From: Puccinia triticina
Taxonomy: Eukaryota; Basidiomycota; Pucciniomycetes; Pucciniales; Pucciniaceae
DNA: 64,000 nucleotides
Reading direction: 5' to 3'
Assembly (NCBI RefSeq): GCF_026914185.1
Contig: NC_070573.1
Location: 3,713,501-3,777,500, forward strand
In this document: in pieces, positions 28,445 to 64,000 of the stretch
Layout of the letters: each line of letters opens with the position of its first letter
Numbering within the stretch: the first letter of the stretch is position 1
Translations under genes and position numbers: made by a program
Notes under the pieces: model-generated
The model's input: the letters and a program-made list of their open reading frames with translations, nothing else
The model's database searches: none
What the model was told of the DNA's origin: nothing

Positions 28445-29680
28445 TCAGTAAAGGCGGGAATCTTGCCCTTTCACTCTGGTCAGCTTCTCGTCTAAGATCT
28501 TAGATGCTACTAGACCTTCAAGCGGGTCCTCAAGGTCCAGAACCACTGGTGGGGGCTGCTCTCTATGATCACCTGGCACAACGTACTTCTTAAGAAGGCT
28601 TACCGGGAAAGTAGGGTGTTTGAGATCATAACTTTCTGTCAAAACCACCTCCACCGCATTCTGGCAGTGAAGCGCTTTCACAAAGAAGGGACCTACAAAC
28701 ACGTCATTGAGCTTCCTGTTCCCACCAAGATTCTGGAAGTTAACCGTGGATACAAAGACTCTGTCACCCACTTGGACGTCATGCTCCCTGTGCGTCTTAT
28801 CCCAACGCTCCTTATTGTACTGCACCGCCTCAGTTAGACATCTACTTGCGTGTTTCTCCATTTGTAAAATCATTTCTTGAGACCTTTCTGCTGACGGATG
28901 AAGGGTAACTGCTTTGCTAAGCAGCAAGTTCCTAGGCATGTAAGGTATCCAAACTCTCTCCAGCTCAAAAGGAGTTTTTCCAGTCGTTGCCTGTATGCTT
29001 GAGTTATACGCATATTCAAGTGCCGGTAGCAACAAAACCCAATCATGCCTATAACCTTTGGCATTCTTAAACTGGAGCCCAAAGGCGCAATAGCGCCTAA
29101 TCATGTCCTCTAAAGTTTGTATCATCCTCTTGGCTAGGCCGTTGGTCTGAGGATGATATGCAGTGGAAAAGGAAAGCTTGGATCCTAGCAGCTGAAAGAG
29201 ACTTTGCCAAAACTCCAATGTGAATTTTGGGTCTCAATACGTGATTATAACCTTTGGACATCCCACGTCATTGATGATGGAGTTCCAGAACAGTAAAGCT
29301 ACATCCAGAGCTGTGCTATCCTTATAGCACGGCAGAAATCAAGCTTGCTTCAAAAAACGGTCCACCACAACCAATACCGCATGAAAACTGTCTTTACCTG
29401 CTGTTGGTAAAGCCGTAACAAAGTCCATATTGATTATTTCCCAGCGCTGTTTGGGTTCTTCAATTGTCTGAAGTAATCCAAACTGTTTAACTGTTGCTCT
29501 GTTTGCTTTCTGGCAGCAATCACAGCTATTGCAATAATGCGCTACTCTTGTGGTCCAGCCTGGCCACCAGGCTAAAACCCTAAAGCGTTCAATAGTCCTT
29601 TCTTTGTAGAAATGACCCACTGCCACATTGTCATGGCATTTGTGCAACATTGTATAGATGTGGTCTTCTTTTATCAGCAC
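28445..29680 (-). pseudogene. Gypsy integrase of the 9.6-kb element
   Basis: The HHCC finger (LHKCHDNVAVGHF ... CNSCDCCQK) and the first catalytic Asp (INMDFVTALP) are present. Two in-frame TGA codons (29341-29339 and 29236-29234) stand where Arg would fit. Just before the second, the codon of the expected catalytic Asp (the D in a typical SDRDPKF) is TAT, Tyr. The expected Glu is Lys (GLAKRMIQ, codon 29131-29129). The C-terminal part from 29218 is open and keeps the usual SH3/chromo-like tail region ([11 protein letters not shown]). At least four independent lesions make this a dead integrase. Family role: insertion of cDNA into the genome. Confidence 0.88.
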
Positions 29681-31361
29681 CAGTGCACAATGATTACCAC
29701 TTAGGTGGTATAGTAGTCAATCTAGGAGGACAAATCTCCCTGCTGTGAAGTTAGCCTTCCAAGGCTCTTTGAGTTGGCTGACTAGATCCGGTTGTGAAGG
29801 CTTGGACTTAAGGATCTGCACTAAGGCTGCGGTGTTCCTGTCATCAATGTAGCTTTGTTCCACTGAATCCCAGAACTCCATAGACAATCCGCTAACGCTG
29901 ATTGCCATGATTGGCACCTCCCTTGTCACTTCCTCTTCATCCGCCGCAGGGTTATCCTTGTCATTGGGCAGAGCCCACCGTGATAAGCCGTCCGCATTCT
30001 TATGGATGAGACCAACTCTATGGGTGATGGCCATGGAGCCCCGCCACTCCTGGATGGAGATCTGCCATCTCATTGTATGTCTACTTGGCGTCTTCATGTT
30101 CAAGAGCAACTTCAAAGCTACGCAGTCCGTTATCAGCTCAAAAACACACCCATCAAGATAGTAGTATAACTTCTCTAATGCCCAAACTAAGCACAAACAC
30201 TCCAACTGAGACGCCCCATACTTCTTCTTGGACTCCTTCAGCTGTCTGGACATGAAGCAAATCGGGCCTTGCACTTCCCTGTCTCCGATCATCTGGATCT
30301 GATGAAGGGCTGCTCCAAGACCTTCCATGCAAGCATCCACGTATAGTTTGAATGGCCTCTTAGGGTCCAGGTGAAACAGCAAAGGAGCCGAGGTGAGCGC
30401 CACTCTCAAAGCTTTATACGCTTCAACTCTTTCCTGTGTCATTTCAAATGCAACATTAGGACTGCAAATCTTGTAAAGCACCGACACTATCATGTTAAAG
30501 TCTTTTATATGTAGCCTGTAATAACCGGCAAACCCCAGAAACAACTGTAACTCCTTGACTGTTGACGGTTTAGGTTTTAGCAACACTGCTGCTACCCGGT
30601 GCTGATCTACCGCCAGTGACAACCTGTTAACAATATGCCCCAGTGCCTTCAAATCAGAAAAGGCAAACAAGAATTTAGTCAAAGAGATCTTCATGTTCAT
30701 GTCTTGAATCCTTCCTAAGACAATAGCTAACTTATCAACACCAGGAAAAAAAAATAGTCACTTGATGACAAGTGACATCATGCCAGCTTTAGCGGGCTAC
30801 CCACCATCTACCCACCATCTACCCATCATCTACCCACCATCTACCCACCATCTAACCACTTTAAGAATTTCCACAGGAGATCCTCAGTTTTTGCTGGGCA
30901 CCACTGATCCCCATTTCTGGTCAGCTGATACTCAGCTTTAGCTCCCAGCTTATGCTCAGCTTTGGTGCCCAGCTCATGCTCAGCTTTGTTGCCCAGATCA
31001 GAACCAGTCCTGGCCCATCTTATTTTCAGCTTTATTCCAGTCATGGCTCAGCTTAGACTCAGATTAGGACTATCATTGGCCCAGCCAATGCTCAGCTTTG
31101 GACCAGTATTGGCTCAGCTGATTTTCAGCTTTGGGTAAATCTTGGTCCAGCCAATTCTCAGATTCTGAGTCTGACCACTCCTGTAACAGCTTATGCTCAT
31201 CTGTGGACCAGCCTTGGCTCAGCTGATGCTCAGCTGTGGACCAACCTTGGCTAAGACAATGCTCAGCTGTGGACCAGCCTTGGCTCAGCTGATGCTCAGC
31301 AGTGGACAAGCCTTGGCTCAGCTGATTGTAGAGGTAGTATATGTTGGTACACCTCACACCT

Positions 31362-31433
31362 GTGGATATAGCTCAATGGTAGAGCAACCCAGCATGCATC
31401 GGGGAGATGCGGGTTCGATTCCCCCTGTCCGCA
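31362..31433 (+). tRNA. tRNA-like sequence in the left LTR (not a normal tRNA gene)
   Basis: The 72 nt fold as a tRNA: a 7-bp acceptor stem (GTGGATA with TGTCCGC, two G-T pairs), a D stem GCTC/GAGC, a T loop TTCGATT with one C-C mismatch in its stem. The A box (TAGCTCAATGG) and B box (GGTTCGATTCC) match consensus, and TTTT follows at 31441. The anticodon arm is poor: the loop reads CATGCAT, with A in place of the invariant U33, so decoding is doubtful. The likely role is a Pol III promoter within the LTR. Confidence 0.65.
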
Positions 31434-31456
31434 CTATTCCTTTTACTCGCTCTACA

Positions 31457-31478
31457 GGTTATGAGCCCAGCGCTATAG
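31457..31478 (+). promoter_or_regulatory. Primer-binding site candidate for an initiator tRNA-Met half
   Basis: Directly after the left LTR lies GGTTATGAGCCCAGCGC. Its complement GCGCTGGGCTCATAACC is an anticodon arm with loop CTCATAA (anticodon CAT), as in fungal initiator tRNA-Met. Copia-type elements are primed by such an internally cut tRNA-Met fragment. Confidence 0.75.
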
Positions 31479-31586
31479 GCAGCTGCGTACCTGGGATGAG
31501 CCTCTGGGAGGATTAGTGGGCTCTGTCACCGGTGTAGGTGTACAGGGGGTGTGTAGAGGTAGTATATGTTGGTACACCTCACACCT

Positions 31587-31658
31587 GTGGATATAGCTCA
31601 ATGGTAGAGCAACCCAGCATGCATCGGGGAGATGCGGGTTCGATTCCCCCTGTCCGCA
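31587..31658 (+). tRNA. tRNA-like sequence in the right LTR
   Basis: Identical to the copy at 31362-31433, as expected for the second LTR. The same A box, B box, degenerate anticodon loop and downstream TTTT are present. Confidence 0.65.
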
Positions 31659-33402
31659 CTATTCCTTTTACTCGCTCTACACTGATGCTCAGCTGTGGAC
31701 CAGCCTTTGCTCAGCTGTGGAACAGCCTTGGCTCAGGTGATATTAATCTTTTTAATAGTCTCAAAAAATCTGATACTCAGCTTTGGAACAACCTTGGCTC
31801 AGCTAATGCTCAGCTTTGTACCAGCATTGGCTCAGCCAATGCTCAGCTTTTGAAAATTTTTGGCCCAGCTGGTGTTAATCTTTGGAACAGTATTGTCCCA
31901 GCTGATCCTAAGCTCTGCACAAGCCTTTTCCAAGATGATGCTCAGCTTTGGACCATTGTTGGCTAAGCTGATGCTCCGATTTGGAATATTCTTGGTCCAG
32001 CTGACACTTGGATTTGCTTCAGGCTTGGAATATCCAATGCTCAGCTGTGGCCCAGGCTCAGCCAATGCTCAGCTTTGGCCCAGGCTCAGTCAATGCCTAC
32101 TGCTCAGCTTATGATGAGCATCAGCTGTTCCTGGGAAAAAATTAGGATCAGCTGACTGTGCCACATTGAGTGCTCTGGTGCAGTCCTGCAAGCTCTACAA
32201 GTGCTGGTGGAGCAGACTTGGAGCAGCGCTGGAGTAGATCTGGAGCAGAAACCAAAGCTGCATCATGTCACTTGCCATCAAGTGACTATTTTTTTTTCCT
32301 GGTGCAAGGTGTTCCTCCCGAGTACTAATGAATACTATAATATCATCAATGTATATGATTAACCACAGTTCATTAAGCTCCCTCCTAAATTCACTGTCCA
32401 TCATGCGCTGGAAATGGGAGGGTGCATTTTTGATGCCAAACGCCATACGTAGGTATTTGTGGATCCCCATATGTGAGATGATCCGGAGGAACTTCCTGCT
32501 ATTGGGTGCCACTTGGTTGTGATGAAAACCTTTCAACATGTCCATGCACATAATGTACTTGGCTCCGTGTAGCTTAGTAAGAGACTCCGTTATCTTTGGC
32601 ATAGGGTATCTGTCAGGAGTTGTATAGGTGTTCAGAGCCCTAAAATCTCCCACCAGCCTGGATTTATTGTTATGCCATGCGATTATGACCGGTGTAGTAA
32701 TGTCAACTCCCTCGTTTGATCCTACTTTCCTCAAAATCCCCATTTTAGTAAGCAAAGCTATATGCTGTTCTATAGCCTCTCTATTTTGCGGACTGGCAGG
32801 ATAAGGAGATTTCCACAGAGCTAGAGGATACAGCTTATCCACCGTTAGGGTGATCTTGACTTTATGTCTTTGAATAGAGCCGAAAGGCTGGTCCGGCGTC
32901 GCAAACGCAGCTTTGAATTGTTTTAACACTGTTAACAGACTTGCTACTCTATCAGCTGGGAGATCCATGTTGACCTTGGTGTCCCATTGTACCTCTTCTT
33001 CAAAAGGCACCACTTTGTGGGCTCCTTGCGACACCGCATTGATGGATTTGTCAAACTCGAATACTCTCTTGCCAATAGTGAATTTCCTCTTTTCCTCATT
33101 AAGCAGTGAATTCTTATAGTGCGCTAGATAATCATTTCCTAGTAGGAAGTACTTAGCTGTCATATCGTCCATTACAACAAACTTAACTACCAATTTGACA
33201 TTCTCCATGACTAGCTTGATGTTGACAACTCCTATTGGCAGCAAGGTTCCTGACGCGCTGTGAAATTTACCTGGAGCTAGCGGCAGTATGAATTTAGGCC
33301 AGCTCGGGCAAAATTTAGATATATAATCTTTGCTTACTACTGACCTGACTGCTCCACTGCCGAGAAAGACCAAACAATCTTTGTTGAAGCACTTCATCTG
33401 GA

Positions 33403-59994: not shown

Positions 59995-60112
59995 CTAAAG
60001 GAAAAAAAAACAAACGGCCACCACGGCGAGGCTCACAAGTGTGGCTGGAGTAGGGTTTTCGACACGTGACGGTAGTAACTACCCGGAGATGCATACCAGG
60101 AGAGGAACTTAC
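59995..60112 (-). other. Intron-like repeat at the pol stop (copy 3 of 5)
   Basis: GTAAGT at 60112-60107 overlaps the pol stop codon (TAA at 60111-60109); a pyrimidine-rich acceptor TTTCCTTTAG ends at 59995. It has the same layout as copy 1 at 959-1081. Confidence 0.45.
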
Positions 60113-63100
60113 TTCTGGTCAGGAAAGTCCTCGCGCGAATAAAACCTCTTAACCTGATCGGCCGCGAAACGCCGCTTCAATTCAGTGCCATCGAGTTCCG
60201 TCAGAACGTAAGAGCCGCCATCCACCTGTTTTACGACGCGGTAGGGCCCATTCCAGCAATGGGCGAACAATTGACCCCACTGCGTCTCCAGGGACCTATT
60301 GAAAGCAAGGACTTGATCTCCAGGCTTGAGCGGCTCACGAATTCGCGCCGAGTTCTTCTCCTCCCAGTATCGTAAGGAATCACCGCGAGCGTCCATCATC
60401 TTCCTGTAAGCAATCCCGCGCGTCTCCTCACTGCGTTCCAACTGAACGGAGCGCGCGACAAGAAGGTCCGCCGTAGTCTTCACGGCGTCCCAGTCGACAC
60501 CAAGGTAAGATTCGATCTCTAGATCCAAAGGAAGGACGGCTCGCTGGCCGAAAACTAGCTCGTAAGGGGAATAACCGGTCGTGCGTTTGGTGGAAATACG
60601 GTCGGAAAAGAGAACCAATGGCAAGTACTTGCGGCAGTTTTTCCCGCTCTCGCCAGCCAATTTAACCAGGGCAGACTTCAGGGGACCATGGCCGCGCTTG
60701 ACCATGCCTTGCCCTTCAGGGTAATAAGGCGTAGAGACTCTGTGCTGTCCCGGAAGCGCGCGCAGCATCTCTGCCAACGCGCCACCAAACTCGGATCTGC
60801 CGTCCGTTGAATACGAGCGCGCCAGCCCGTAGCGCATCGTCCAATTCTCCTGGAGGAAGGCCGCCACCGCCTCCGATGTGAGGTTATTCAGGATCTTGGC
60901 CTCCACCCAACCCAAGAAGTCATCGCGAGCCACAATGAGGTACTTTGCGCCGCTAGCCTTGAGGTGTACGGCGTCCATGGAAACGCGTCCAAAGACTGTT
61001 GACTCGCCGGAAGGGTAGCGCAGCTCCTGTGGTCGCCTAAGATCCTTCTTCTGGCAAGCTTCGCAACTCTGGCACCAACGCATGACGGATTGCTTGAGTG
61101 ATGGCCACCAGAAACGCTCGGAGACCCGACGATAGGTCTCAGCCGTGCCACAATGCCCCAGGCCTTTGTGTAGCTCTGCCAGAATTGATTCCTGTTTTGA
61201 CGGGATCGTGACAACGATTTGAGAGAGAGGACTGCCTCGCTTCATGAGACGGCCTGCTTGTAGAAAGAACCCCGCAGATCGACGCTTCAAGGCGCGAAAC
61301 TCGTCGTCGTCCGACCCTTCGGGCCTGGCCAGCGTAGCTAGGAAGATTTCCATACGGCACCAGAACCCTTCCTGGTAGCCGGAGTAGCCTGTTTTGGAGT
61401 TGATGGCAAAAGAGTAAAGCGGTTGGATTGCTGGAAAGTCCTCATCGAACTCAGAAGAAGGGGGATCCGATTCGTCCTCGCCTTGAGGGCGCCTTGAGAG
61501 ACCGTCCGGCATAGTGAAAGACTTGCCGGGCCGATGAACCACATCAAAAGAGAAGAGCTGGATGAACGCCACCCAGCGCGTCATAGGAGCGTTAGGGAGG
61601 CTCGGCGCGTTAATCATCTGGATAAGGGACTGCGCGTTGACCTGAAGCTCAAAATGCTGTCCCCACAAGGTAGTTTGCAGCTTCTTGAGGATTCTAGCGA
61701 CGCCACATAGTTCCAATTTTGACTGAGAGTAACGTGACTCAACGTCGGAAAACAATAACGACTCGTAGAGCGCGGGTCGGTCCAACCCGTTGGAATCTTC
61801 TTGAGTGAGGACCGCGCCAGCCGCGTGGAAACTAGAATCTACGGCGAGCTTGATCTTTCCCGCCTCTGGCCCGTAATCGATCTTGACCAGGACAATGTCC
61901 TTCCCGACGATCAGCTTTAGCTCCTCGAACGCATCCTCACAGTCCGGGGTCCAAACAAAATCCGCGTCCTTACGCGTCAGACGACGAAGTGGCAGGCAAA
62001 GCTGAGAGAGGGAGGGGATGAAAATCCTGACATACACGACCACGCCCAAAAACCCGCGGACCTCCGTCGCGTTAGCCGGCGTGGGCCAAGAGAGAATCTT
62101 GTTGACTTTGCTCTTCGCCATACAACGGCCTTCCTTGCAAACAACATGGCCCACTATTTCCAGGGCCGGAACGCATGCCGCCAGTTTAGTCGCAGAAACT
62201 GTAAGGCCGGACTCCTCAATACGGAAAAGAACTCACTCGAGCGTTTCGGCGTACTCCCAGATGAAACGGCGTATGGTGGGATGCCAATCCAGAACCTCGT
62301 CGTTGTAGTCAGAGACTGGGCCCTTGATGCCCCCATCATCTATGAAAATTCCCGCGTGATCCGGAATCTTGTCTTGAAGAATCCAGACCATCTGGGCCTG
62401 ATACACAGCAACAGAGTTTGTTGCGCCTTGAGGGAGTCTAGTCAGCTGGAAACGTCCGAGCGGCGTGTCAAAAGTCGTAAGAGGGCGAGAAATGGGATGC
62501 AGAGCGCGCTCGTCATAGCCACCCATAATATCCCCTAGCCCGTAGCACGCGCGTCCGGAAAATGACTCCACGAATTCTTCGGTCGCAGGGGGTACGCCCG
62601 CATCTCTGATCGTGACTTTGTTCAAGGGTTGCAGGTCATGAACGATCCGGAGCTTGCCATTACTTTTCAACACGCAGAAAACGGGGCTGGTGTAGCTCGA
62701 CGTCGACTGCTCATACAGGCCAGTCCGCACTCGCTCCCTTATGATCCGAGTGTATTCGTCCATCTTAGCCGCTGGGATGGGAATTTTCTTCTTCTGCCAG
62801 GGTTTGTGCTCGATGACCGGGATGATGTAGGGGAGGCCATAAGATTCTTTAAGAAGTCCGCACTGTGATTCATCGAAAGCTATTGCCAGACTACGCTCCG
62901 CCAGAACGTTTTTGATAAGATCCAGCTCAGCGGGACGCAGCCATCCTGGCGGCCCGAAGTTTACGTCTTGAAGGCTCTCGGCAGTGACTCGCCCACGCGG
63001 AACGAACGGGCCCGCAAGAGACCTAGGGAGTCCTCGATAAGGATCCCGCGACAAGGGTGGGCGCTGGAGCGGAGGGTTGAGTTCCTGGGGCATGGGTTGA

Positions 63101-63266
63101 TTCACCGGCCGTATCTTGCGCGCCACCGGTTTGTATTTAGCGGCAAAGACGAGGAAGTCGCCGTTTCGCCAGGAATCCGCGAGAGTTGCTTGAGCGCGCT
63201 GACTGAGGCTATGCTCCAACAAGAGTCCAGTTCGATGCTCCCTCTCGCTTTCGAACGCCGACTTTT

Positions 63267-63375
63267 CTGAGAAGGAGAAACCAAACAAAGACTTGTGGCT
63301 CACGAGTGTGGCTAAAGTAGGGCTTTCACAACGTGTAGAGATACCCTCGGAGGTGCAACTATGGGAGGAACTTAC
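63267..63375 (-). other. Intron-like repeat inside the pol frame (copy 4 of 5)
   Basis: 109 nt from GTAAGT (63375) to TCTCAG (63267). It is also open in the pol frame, so it may be translated (GELKVSSSHSCTS) or spliced; removal would shift the frame. Confidence 0.45.
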
Positions 63376-63673
63376 TTTTAGTTCTCCCAAGCACCACGAC
63401 GCACCGTATTCACCCTCCTCATTAACCCTAGCGAAGGGGTCCTTGACAAATAGTTTCACCTCATCACGGAGGATCATTAGTTTTACCTCGTCGCGGAGGC
63501 TTGGAAGTTTAGCCTCATTGCGGAGGGTCTCGAAAGACGGAATTAGATTACCCTCGTTGCGGAGGACCTCAATGGGTAGGACGAGTTTATTCTCTTTGCG
63601 GAGACGTGTTTTGGAAGGTAGTTTAGTCTTGTCTTGGAGACAAGCCAAATCGGGGCGCTGAGTTTGACCGTAA

Positions 63674-63783
63674 CTGAAAAAGGAACCAACAGGTTGCGGG
63701 TGGCTCACGAGTGTGGCGGAACGTAGAGCTTTTGACGAGAGAGTGGCATCCGGCCCGGAGGTGCATAATTGGGAGGAACTTAC
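63674..63783 (-). other. Intron-like repeat near the 5' end of pol (copy 5 of 5)
   Basis: 110 nt from GTAAGT (63783) to TTTTTCAG (63674). Upstream bases (GGGAGAACTAAAA) are the same as before copy 4, so the repeated unit includes about 13 bases of the exon side. It is also open in frame (GELKVSSSQLCTS). Bases 63829-64000 continue the same element; no boundary is visible. Confidence 0.45.
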
Positions 63784-64000
63784 TTTTAGTTCTCCCATCC
63801 TCCGCGGGGCACCTAAAATCTCCTCCACAATTGAACCAGAAAACTCGCACCCAGAAGACGCCGCCGCGCTTGAGTCGGCTCGAGAAAAACACGCAAAGCT
63901 TGCTGGCTGAGAAAATCTTGAGGCACGAGGAGTTGAAATGATTGAAAGGCTGAAACGTCCGGAAAGAGGATCAAAAGAAATGTTTTCTGAATTTGATTGA

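Follow-up and report, generated by a model that had tools for sequence, protein, structure and literature searches.

A Helenus-type TRIM with tRNA-like LTRs in Puccinia triticina and hybrid insertions that point to a Copia helper

Elements of the kind described here were published in 2024 as Helenus, which are TRIMs with a decayed tRNA in their LTRs. Helenus was named by Kojima (2024) and described in rust fungi with matching anatomy; in the available text of that paper (PMC10886601), most fungal Helenus families have a primer-binding site (PBS) to a tRNA anticodon loop, most commonly that of initiator tRNA-Met (iMet), and their dependence on Copia was inferred from similar PBSs, the length of the duplications and a single interior match linking two species. 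The same text attributes 133 of the 137 predicted tRNA-Ala-TGC genes in Puccinia triticina to one family, Helenus-4_PTrit. Among other TRIMs, Cassandra also has a small-RNA gene and a Pol III promoter in its LTR and forms tandem arrays (PMC7215508, available part), and it differs in carrying 5S rRNA rather than tRNA, in belonging to land plants and in its length of 565–860 bp (PMC10886601, available text). Going by a reference-list entry, recombination between Cassandra elements in pear is the subject of a further paper. Ajax is likewise a TRIM with a small-RNA promoter in its LTRs.

We analyzed a 355-bp LTR retroelement in a window of 64,000 nucleotides (the whole stretch of P. triticina DNA under study). 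Like Helenus, the element has tRNA-derived sequence in both LTRs, 5-bp duplications and a PBS to the spliced iMet anticodon loop. Its family is very probably Helenus-4_PTrit, a name that follows from the published description rather than from matching letters, because the element reads as tRNA-Ala(tgc) and Helenus-4_PTrit is the main tRNA-Ala-TGC source in this species. Compared by description with the available text of PMC10886601, the two agree in being fungal TRIMs with A and B boxes in tRNA-like LTRs, 5-bp duplications, an iMet PBS, Copia dependence and tRNA-Ala-TGC, with no difference found at that level. The evidence as a whole is best explained by a Helenus member, very probably Helenus-4_PTrit, that was moved by Copia and whose hybrids arose by strand transfer, and we put the probability of this reading at roughly 0.86.

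Element anatomy and the tRNA-like LTRs

The element occupies positions 31327..31681 of the window and, like all of its parts, lies on the + strand. Its two LTRs (31327..31456 and 31552..31681) are 130 bp long, run TG...CA and are identical at 130/130 positions, and CTGAT stands on both sides (31322..31326 and 31682..31686); direct reading and a script comparison thereby confirmed the terminal repeats and target-site duplication described in an earlier sequence-only reading. The 95-bp interior (31457..31551) opens directly 3′ of the 5′ LTR with the PBS GGTTATGAGCCCAGCGC (31457..31473) and closes with the polypurine tract ACAGGGGGTG (31542..31551, extent judged by eye). With a length of 355 bp (<1000 bp), LTRs, a PBS, a polypurine tract and no coding for mobility proteins, it has the make-up of a TRIM. 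The window copy can be regarded as young because its two LTRs are identical. Gypsy-like open frames, judged by eye, surround the element (window 28445-33397 and 60109-63828).

ARAGORN predicts tRNA-Ala(tgc) in each of the two LTRs, and Rfam also calls a tRNA in each copy, with 42.9 bits per LTR (cut-off 29). The folds lie at 31362..31433 and 31587..31658. The 72-nt length read earlier from the sequence holds in Rfam, whereas ARAGORN gives 73 nt (to 31434 and 31659), and the predicted anticodon TGC is an addition to that reading. Above the cut-off, Rfam reports tRNA alone in the window; 5S rRNA, the Cassandra trait, was not found there.

The A box, B box and TTTT claimed for each LTR could all be located in the window copy. 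In the 5′ LTR, the A box TAGCTCAATGG (31369..31379, assigned from its place within the tRNA-like fold) and the B box GGTTCGATTCC (31412..31422) are followed by TTTT at 31441..31444, with 7 bases between fold and TTTT; the TTTT of the 3′ LTR is at 31666..31669. We assign the two boxes by their standard motifs. Both are intact in the window copy, the A box reads TAGCTCAACGG in most listed copies, and the element agrees with the box pattern of Helenus (A box TRGCY...YGG, B box GGTTC).

A functional tRNA-Ala has U33 and the G3:U70 identity pair. Neither was found in the LTR unit: the loss of U33 noticed earlier is real, with A33 at that place in the fold, and the third acceptor pair is G-C. The anticodon stem further has an A.G mismatch, and one pair of the T stem is also mismatched. 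The tRNA calls by ARAGORN and Rfam would be expected if the units were real, expressed tRNA-Ala genes duplicated by chance, but these faults, together with the placement of the copies inside LTRs with 5-bp duplications, make such an origin highly improbable. Because it lies inside LTRs, has A33 in place of U33 and is without G3:U70, the unit does not, as far as its letters can tell, look like a functional tRNA gene, and a match to a functional multi-copy tRNA gene, which the sequence-only reading had named as the finding that would speak against it, was not obtained. Gene finders should not count Helenus copies as tRNA genes.

A genome-wide pattern search for an initiator-type tRNA-Met gave one match, a tRNA-Met(cat) gene with an 8-nt intron (L126:1476-1556, minus strand; 52.4 bits in Rfam), which we take to be of the initiator type by the A1:U72 rule. 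The PBS pairs with about positions 24-40 of the spliced form of this tRNA at 17/17 bases, vs 16/17 for the unspliced form, and the proposed complementarity to an initiator-type tRNA-Met half was thus borne out in the genome itself. Drosophila copia and yeast Ty5, which are autonomous and kilobases long, have initiator tRNA-Met as their primer, and to our knowledge neither has a tRNA-like LTR. Both are primed at the tRNA anticodon loop according to the available text of PMC10886601, and the PBS match of the window element fits half-tRNA priming of this kind.

For transcription, we propose that Pol III would start a short way 5′ of the tRNA-like fold. A run of four T is a weak Pol III stop in fungi, and some transcripts may pass the first TTTT and end at the TTTT of the 3′ LTR; R would then lie at about LTR positions 25-118, and the short RNA would have it at both ends. 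Alternatively, Pol II could transcribe from the LTRs, with the tRNA-like part a mere relic: the TTTT in each LTR could end Pol III early, and the related Copia LTRs, which by eye have no tRNA-like stretch, presumably use Pol II. The intact A and B boxes of the window copy and the retention of the box motifs in most Helenus LTRs (PMC10886601, available text) argue against Pol II, which we consider unlikely.

Copies, duplications and sequence change

The genome searched comprises 122,823,596 bases on 18 contigs. The 59-base tRNA-like core (≤3 mismatches) was found at 116 places, vs 0 for a backwards-pattern control, and the LTR gave at least 79 matches. With the 355-bp query, 43 of 44 matches span all 355 bases at 97–100% (a lower bound; matches on tandem copies overlap). 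Copies of the element are therefore many and dispersed, far above chance.

From 100 listed cores (of the 116) and 58 PBS sites (PBS plus TATAGG, up to 1 mismatch), we built 65 clusters and read each of them. They contain 73 units, namely 47 complete units, 14 solo LTRs and 12 partial or disturbed units; locus L021, which repeats copies in L022, was omitted from these counts. The 5-bp duplication recurs throughout, being perfect at 41/47 complete units and 10/14 solo LTRs. Among the six complete units without a perfect duplication, L069 and L094 have one mismatch, L085 has unmatched flanks, and three belong to compound insertions (L019 and both copies in L076) whose outer flanks match. Three of the four corresponding solo LTRs are likewise in compound insertions (one in L019, two in L101), and the fourth has one mismatch. 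The automatic test found no duplication for the 12 partial or disturbed units, four of which, including two hybrids described below, are without an LTR and fell outside that test.

The flanks of the window element are minisatellite-like. Joined with one CTGAT, they give an unbroken 27-base match in the adjoining minisatellite unit (31213..31239, + strand), a paralogous empty site of the sort that the sequence-only reading had proposed to look for. Such flanks would suit a simple tandem duplication of the 130-bp unit within the minisatellite, the other finding that the sequence-only reading had said would speak against it. The 355-bp unit, however, recurs at numerous places across many contigs and in most cases has a 5-bp duplication of its own, which refutes this explanation and leaves it a probability close to nil. 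Anatomy, copies and PBS match together support the earlier suggestion that the element is a fungal TRIM whose LTRs have a tRNA-derived part and whose priming is of the Copia half-tRNA type.

Two complete units, L059 and L077, have the tandem structure LTR-interior-LTR-interior-LTR, with one duplication each. At L076:1263-1972 (C8:7122277-7122986), two complete copies lie tail to tail with zero bases between them and AACCC as outer flanks, and this inverted dimer seems to have inserted as one unit. L101:1718-2002 (C18) consists of an LTR, 25 bp of interior including the PBS, and an inverted LTR, with AACAG at both outer ends. L019:1376-1877 (C17) consists of an inverted complete copy, a 17-bp inverted piece of the LTR start and a forward LTR, with GGACA at both outer ends.

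Unrelated sequence abuts the LTR in L058, L085, L087 and L089, at LTR positions 30, 30, 47 and 49, respectively, near the A box; in some of the loci read it forms a palindrome, and it may be another transposon. L058 and L085, which have LTR positions 30-130 only, might have marked where the RNA begins, but this use of them was dropped in view of the palindromic, transposon-like sequence joined to them. L119 (C2:1646957) is a decayed sister of the Helenus-type family, 81% alike in the interior and 89% alike over 84 LTR bases, with the B box region missing.

The LTR pairs of 42 gapless elements differ at 87/5460 sites, and their interiors differ from the window copy at 17/3990 sites; L088, L091 and L094, three of the 45 single complete elements, have gaps and were left out of these sums. 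Slower change in the interior than in the LTRs was considered and rejected because 47 of the 87 LTR changes are at CpG and the remainder is close to the interior rate: the 40 non-CpG changes amount to about 0.37% per LTR vs 0.43% for the interior, and the difference vanishes once CpG changes are set aside. Change at CpG sites seems to be more frequent in the LTRs than in the interior. Across 84 LTRs, the CpG in the B box (LTR positions 90-91, window 31416-31417) departs from the window copy 27 times; no other CpG of that copy's LTR does so as often, and some of these changes may be shared by descent. For the TTTT of the LTR, no change is listed among 84 LTRs, in which changes are too few overall to prove constraint.

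A Copia lineage as candidate helper

The half-iMet PBS GGTTATGAGCCCA, followed by bases that exclude the window element's family, occurs at 110 sites, of which 100 were listed and 99 compared, one mutated copy of the window element's family being omitted. At least 31 of these 99 sites have a same-strand RVT_2 match 0.5–6 kb downstream among the best 150 of 1760 RVT_2 candidates, against 0 for control placements, and the distance from the PBS is 2.45–3.05 kb in 27 of the 31. We read the PBS flanks at 16 of the 31 RVT_2-linked sites, at two further sites and in one more Copia.

One lineage stands close to the window element at the 3′ tip of the LTR. Over the last 12 LTR bases, L120 and L123 differ from the window element at 2, vs 5–9 for 16 other Copia pieces and 4 for the decayed sister L119. 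The L120/L123 lineage is Copia by RVT_2. L120 (C15:1536753) has the whole 17-nt PBS, and the surrounding L122 contains broken Copia domains (RVT_2 3.4e-30); L123, hereafter the C5 Copia (C5:613366-618474), has LTRs of 107–108 bp, TCAAA on both sides and an open RT piece (RVT_2 1.1e-43). Among eight pieces of this lineage read with their PBS, seven have GGTTATGAGCCTGCGC and only L120 has all 17 bases.

The likeness of the Helenus interior to the Copia leaders hardly extends beyond the PBS. An interior shared with an autonomous element was a candidate explanation for nine of the 65 clusters, which had the PBS without a listed core. Because all nine turned out to be of the window element's family, no longer element among the 58 places with PBS plus TATAGG shares the interior start in the assembly. 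Plant TRIMs have also been paired with larger, putatively autonomous partners by sequence likeness; their link is LTR and interior identity, whereas that of the window element is hybrid insertions (PMC4717578, available part, for the plant elements).

Hybrid insertions

The L122 LTR region, used as a query, matched two hybrids, L053 (C2:7564204-7564536) and L064 (C4:7356677-7357008), which had earlier been classed as partial Helenus copies. Both consist of a Copia-type 5′ LTR without the tRNA part (108 bp in L053, 107 bp in L064), a complete Helenus interior and a complete Helenus 3′ LTR, and in both the junction is at the PBS. Each whole hybrid is spanned by a perfect 5-bp duplication (CACGA/CACGA in L053 and TCCAG/TCCAG in L064), and no likeness between the flanks of the two was found at E 1e-3 (about 1.2 kb each side).

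Ordinary reverse transcription of one RNA yields two like LTRs. The hybrids are probably fossils of TRIM copying inside particles made by one specific Copia lineage, formed by transfer of helper plus-strand strong-stop DNA at the shared PBS. In the pathway we propose, Copia particles would take up the Helenus RNA, the 5′ half of spliced tRNA-iMet would prime its reverse transcription, and the Copia integrase would insert the element cDNA. For the hybrids, Copia plus-strand strong-stop DNA, ending in the PBS, would anneal to Helenus minus-strand DNA, and the product, to judge from its structure, would be inserted by integrase as one cDNA.

A different origin, through recombination of DNA or nesting of one insertion in another once the elements had integrated, rather than by reverse transcription, has a precedent in that most complex elements known earlier are products of recombination between neighbouring insertions (PMC1950507, available part). 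According to the same source, recombination between two inserted elements is expected to leave unmatched flanks, whereas each hybrid has a perfect 5-bp duplication across its whole length; moreover, the flanks of the two hybrids are unlike and both are joined at the PBS, and we regard a post-integration origin as distinctly improbable. The template-switch complexes of Triticeae (Sabot and Schulman 2007) resemble the P. triticina hybrids in being mixed elements with matching 5-bp duplications and co-packaged RNAs, but they are dimers with alike outer LTRs, whereas the hybrids have unlike outer LTRs and combine a helper-type element with a TRIM (PMC1950507, available part).

Together with the LTR 3′ tip and the PBS, the two hybrid insertions give a physical record that links the window element's family to one Copia lineage and would reflect movement in trans by Copia. 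The terms hybrid, chimer and template switch are absent from the main text of PMC10886601, and no description of helper–TRIM hybrids was found in the literature searched, which lay mostly outside subscription journals; insertions of this type are apparently previously unreported. Evidence on the identity of the helper is what this adds to the published class, and the hybrids merit further study: within one genome they connect a single Helenus family with a single Copia lineage, and they point to plus-strand transfer at the primer site as the step where both replications meet. If copying by strand transfer is true, a shared primer site and short LTR tips suffice for full parasitism, and a helper LTR can move onto its parasite in one step. 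Counts of such hybrids in further genomes would make it possible to test which features a TRIM and its helper need to have in common.

No Copia in the assembly could be identified as the exact donor of the hybrid LTR, the best match after the hybrids themselves being 91% (35/35 candidates scored). In L064, the 5′ LTR is identical over its first 71 bases to the 3′ LTR of the C5 Copia, and the end of the hybrid LTR fits another Copia member, L132, better. At interior position 19, L064 has T, as do 3 of the 45 single complete elements, and L053 has A. Allowing for a possible later change in one of them, the two hybrids are likely to be independent events, because their interiors carry different alleles.
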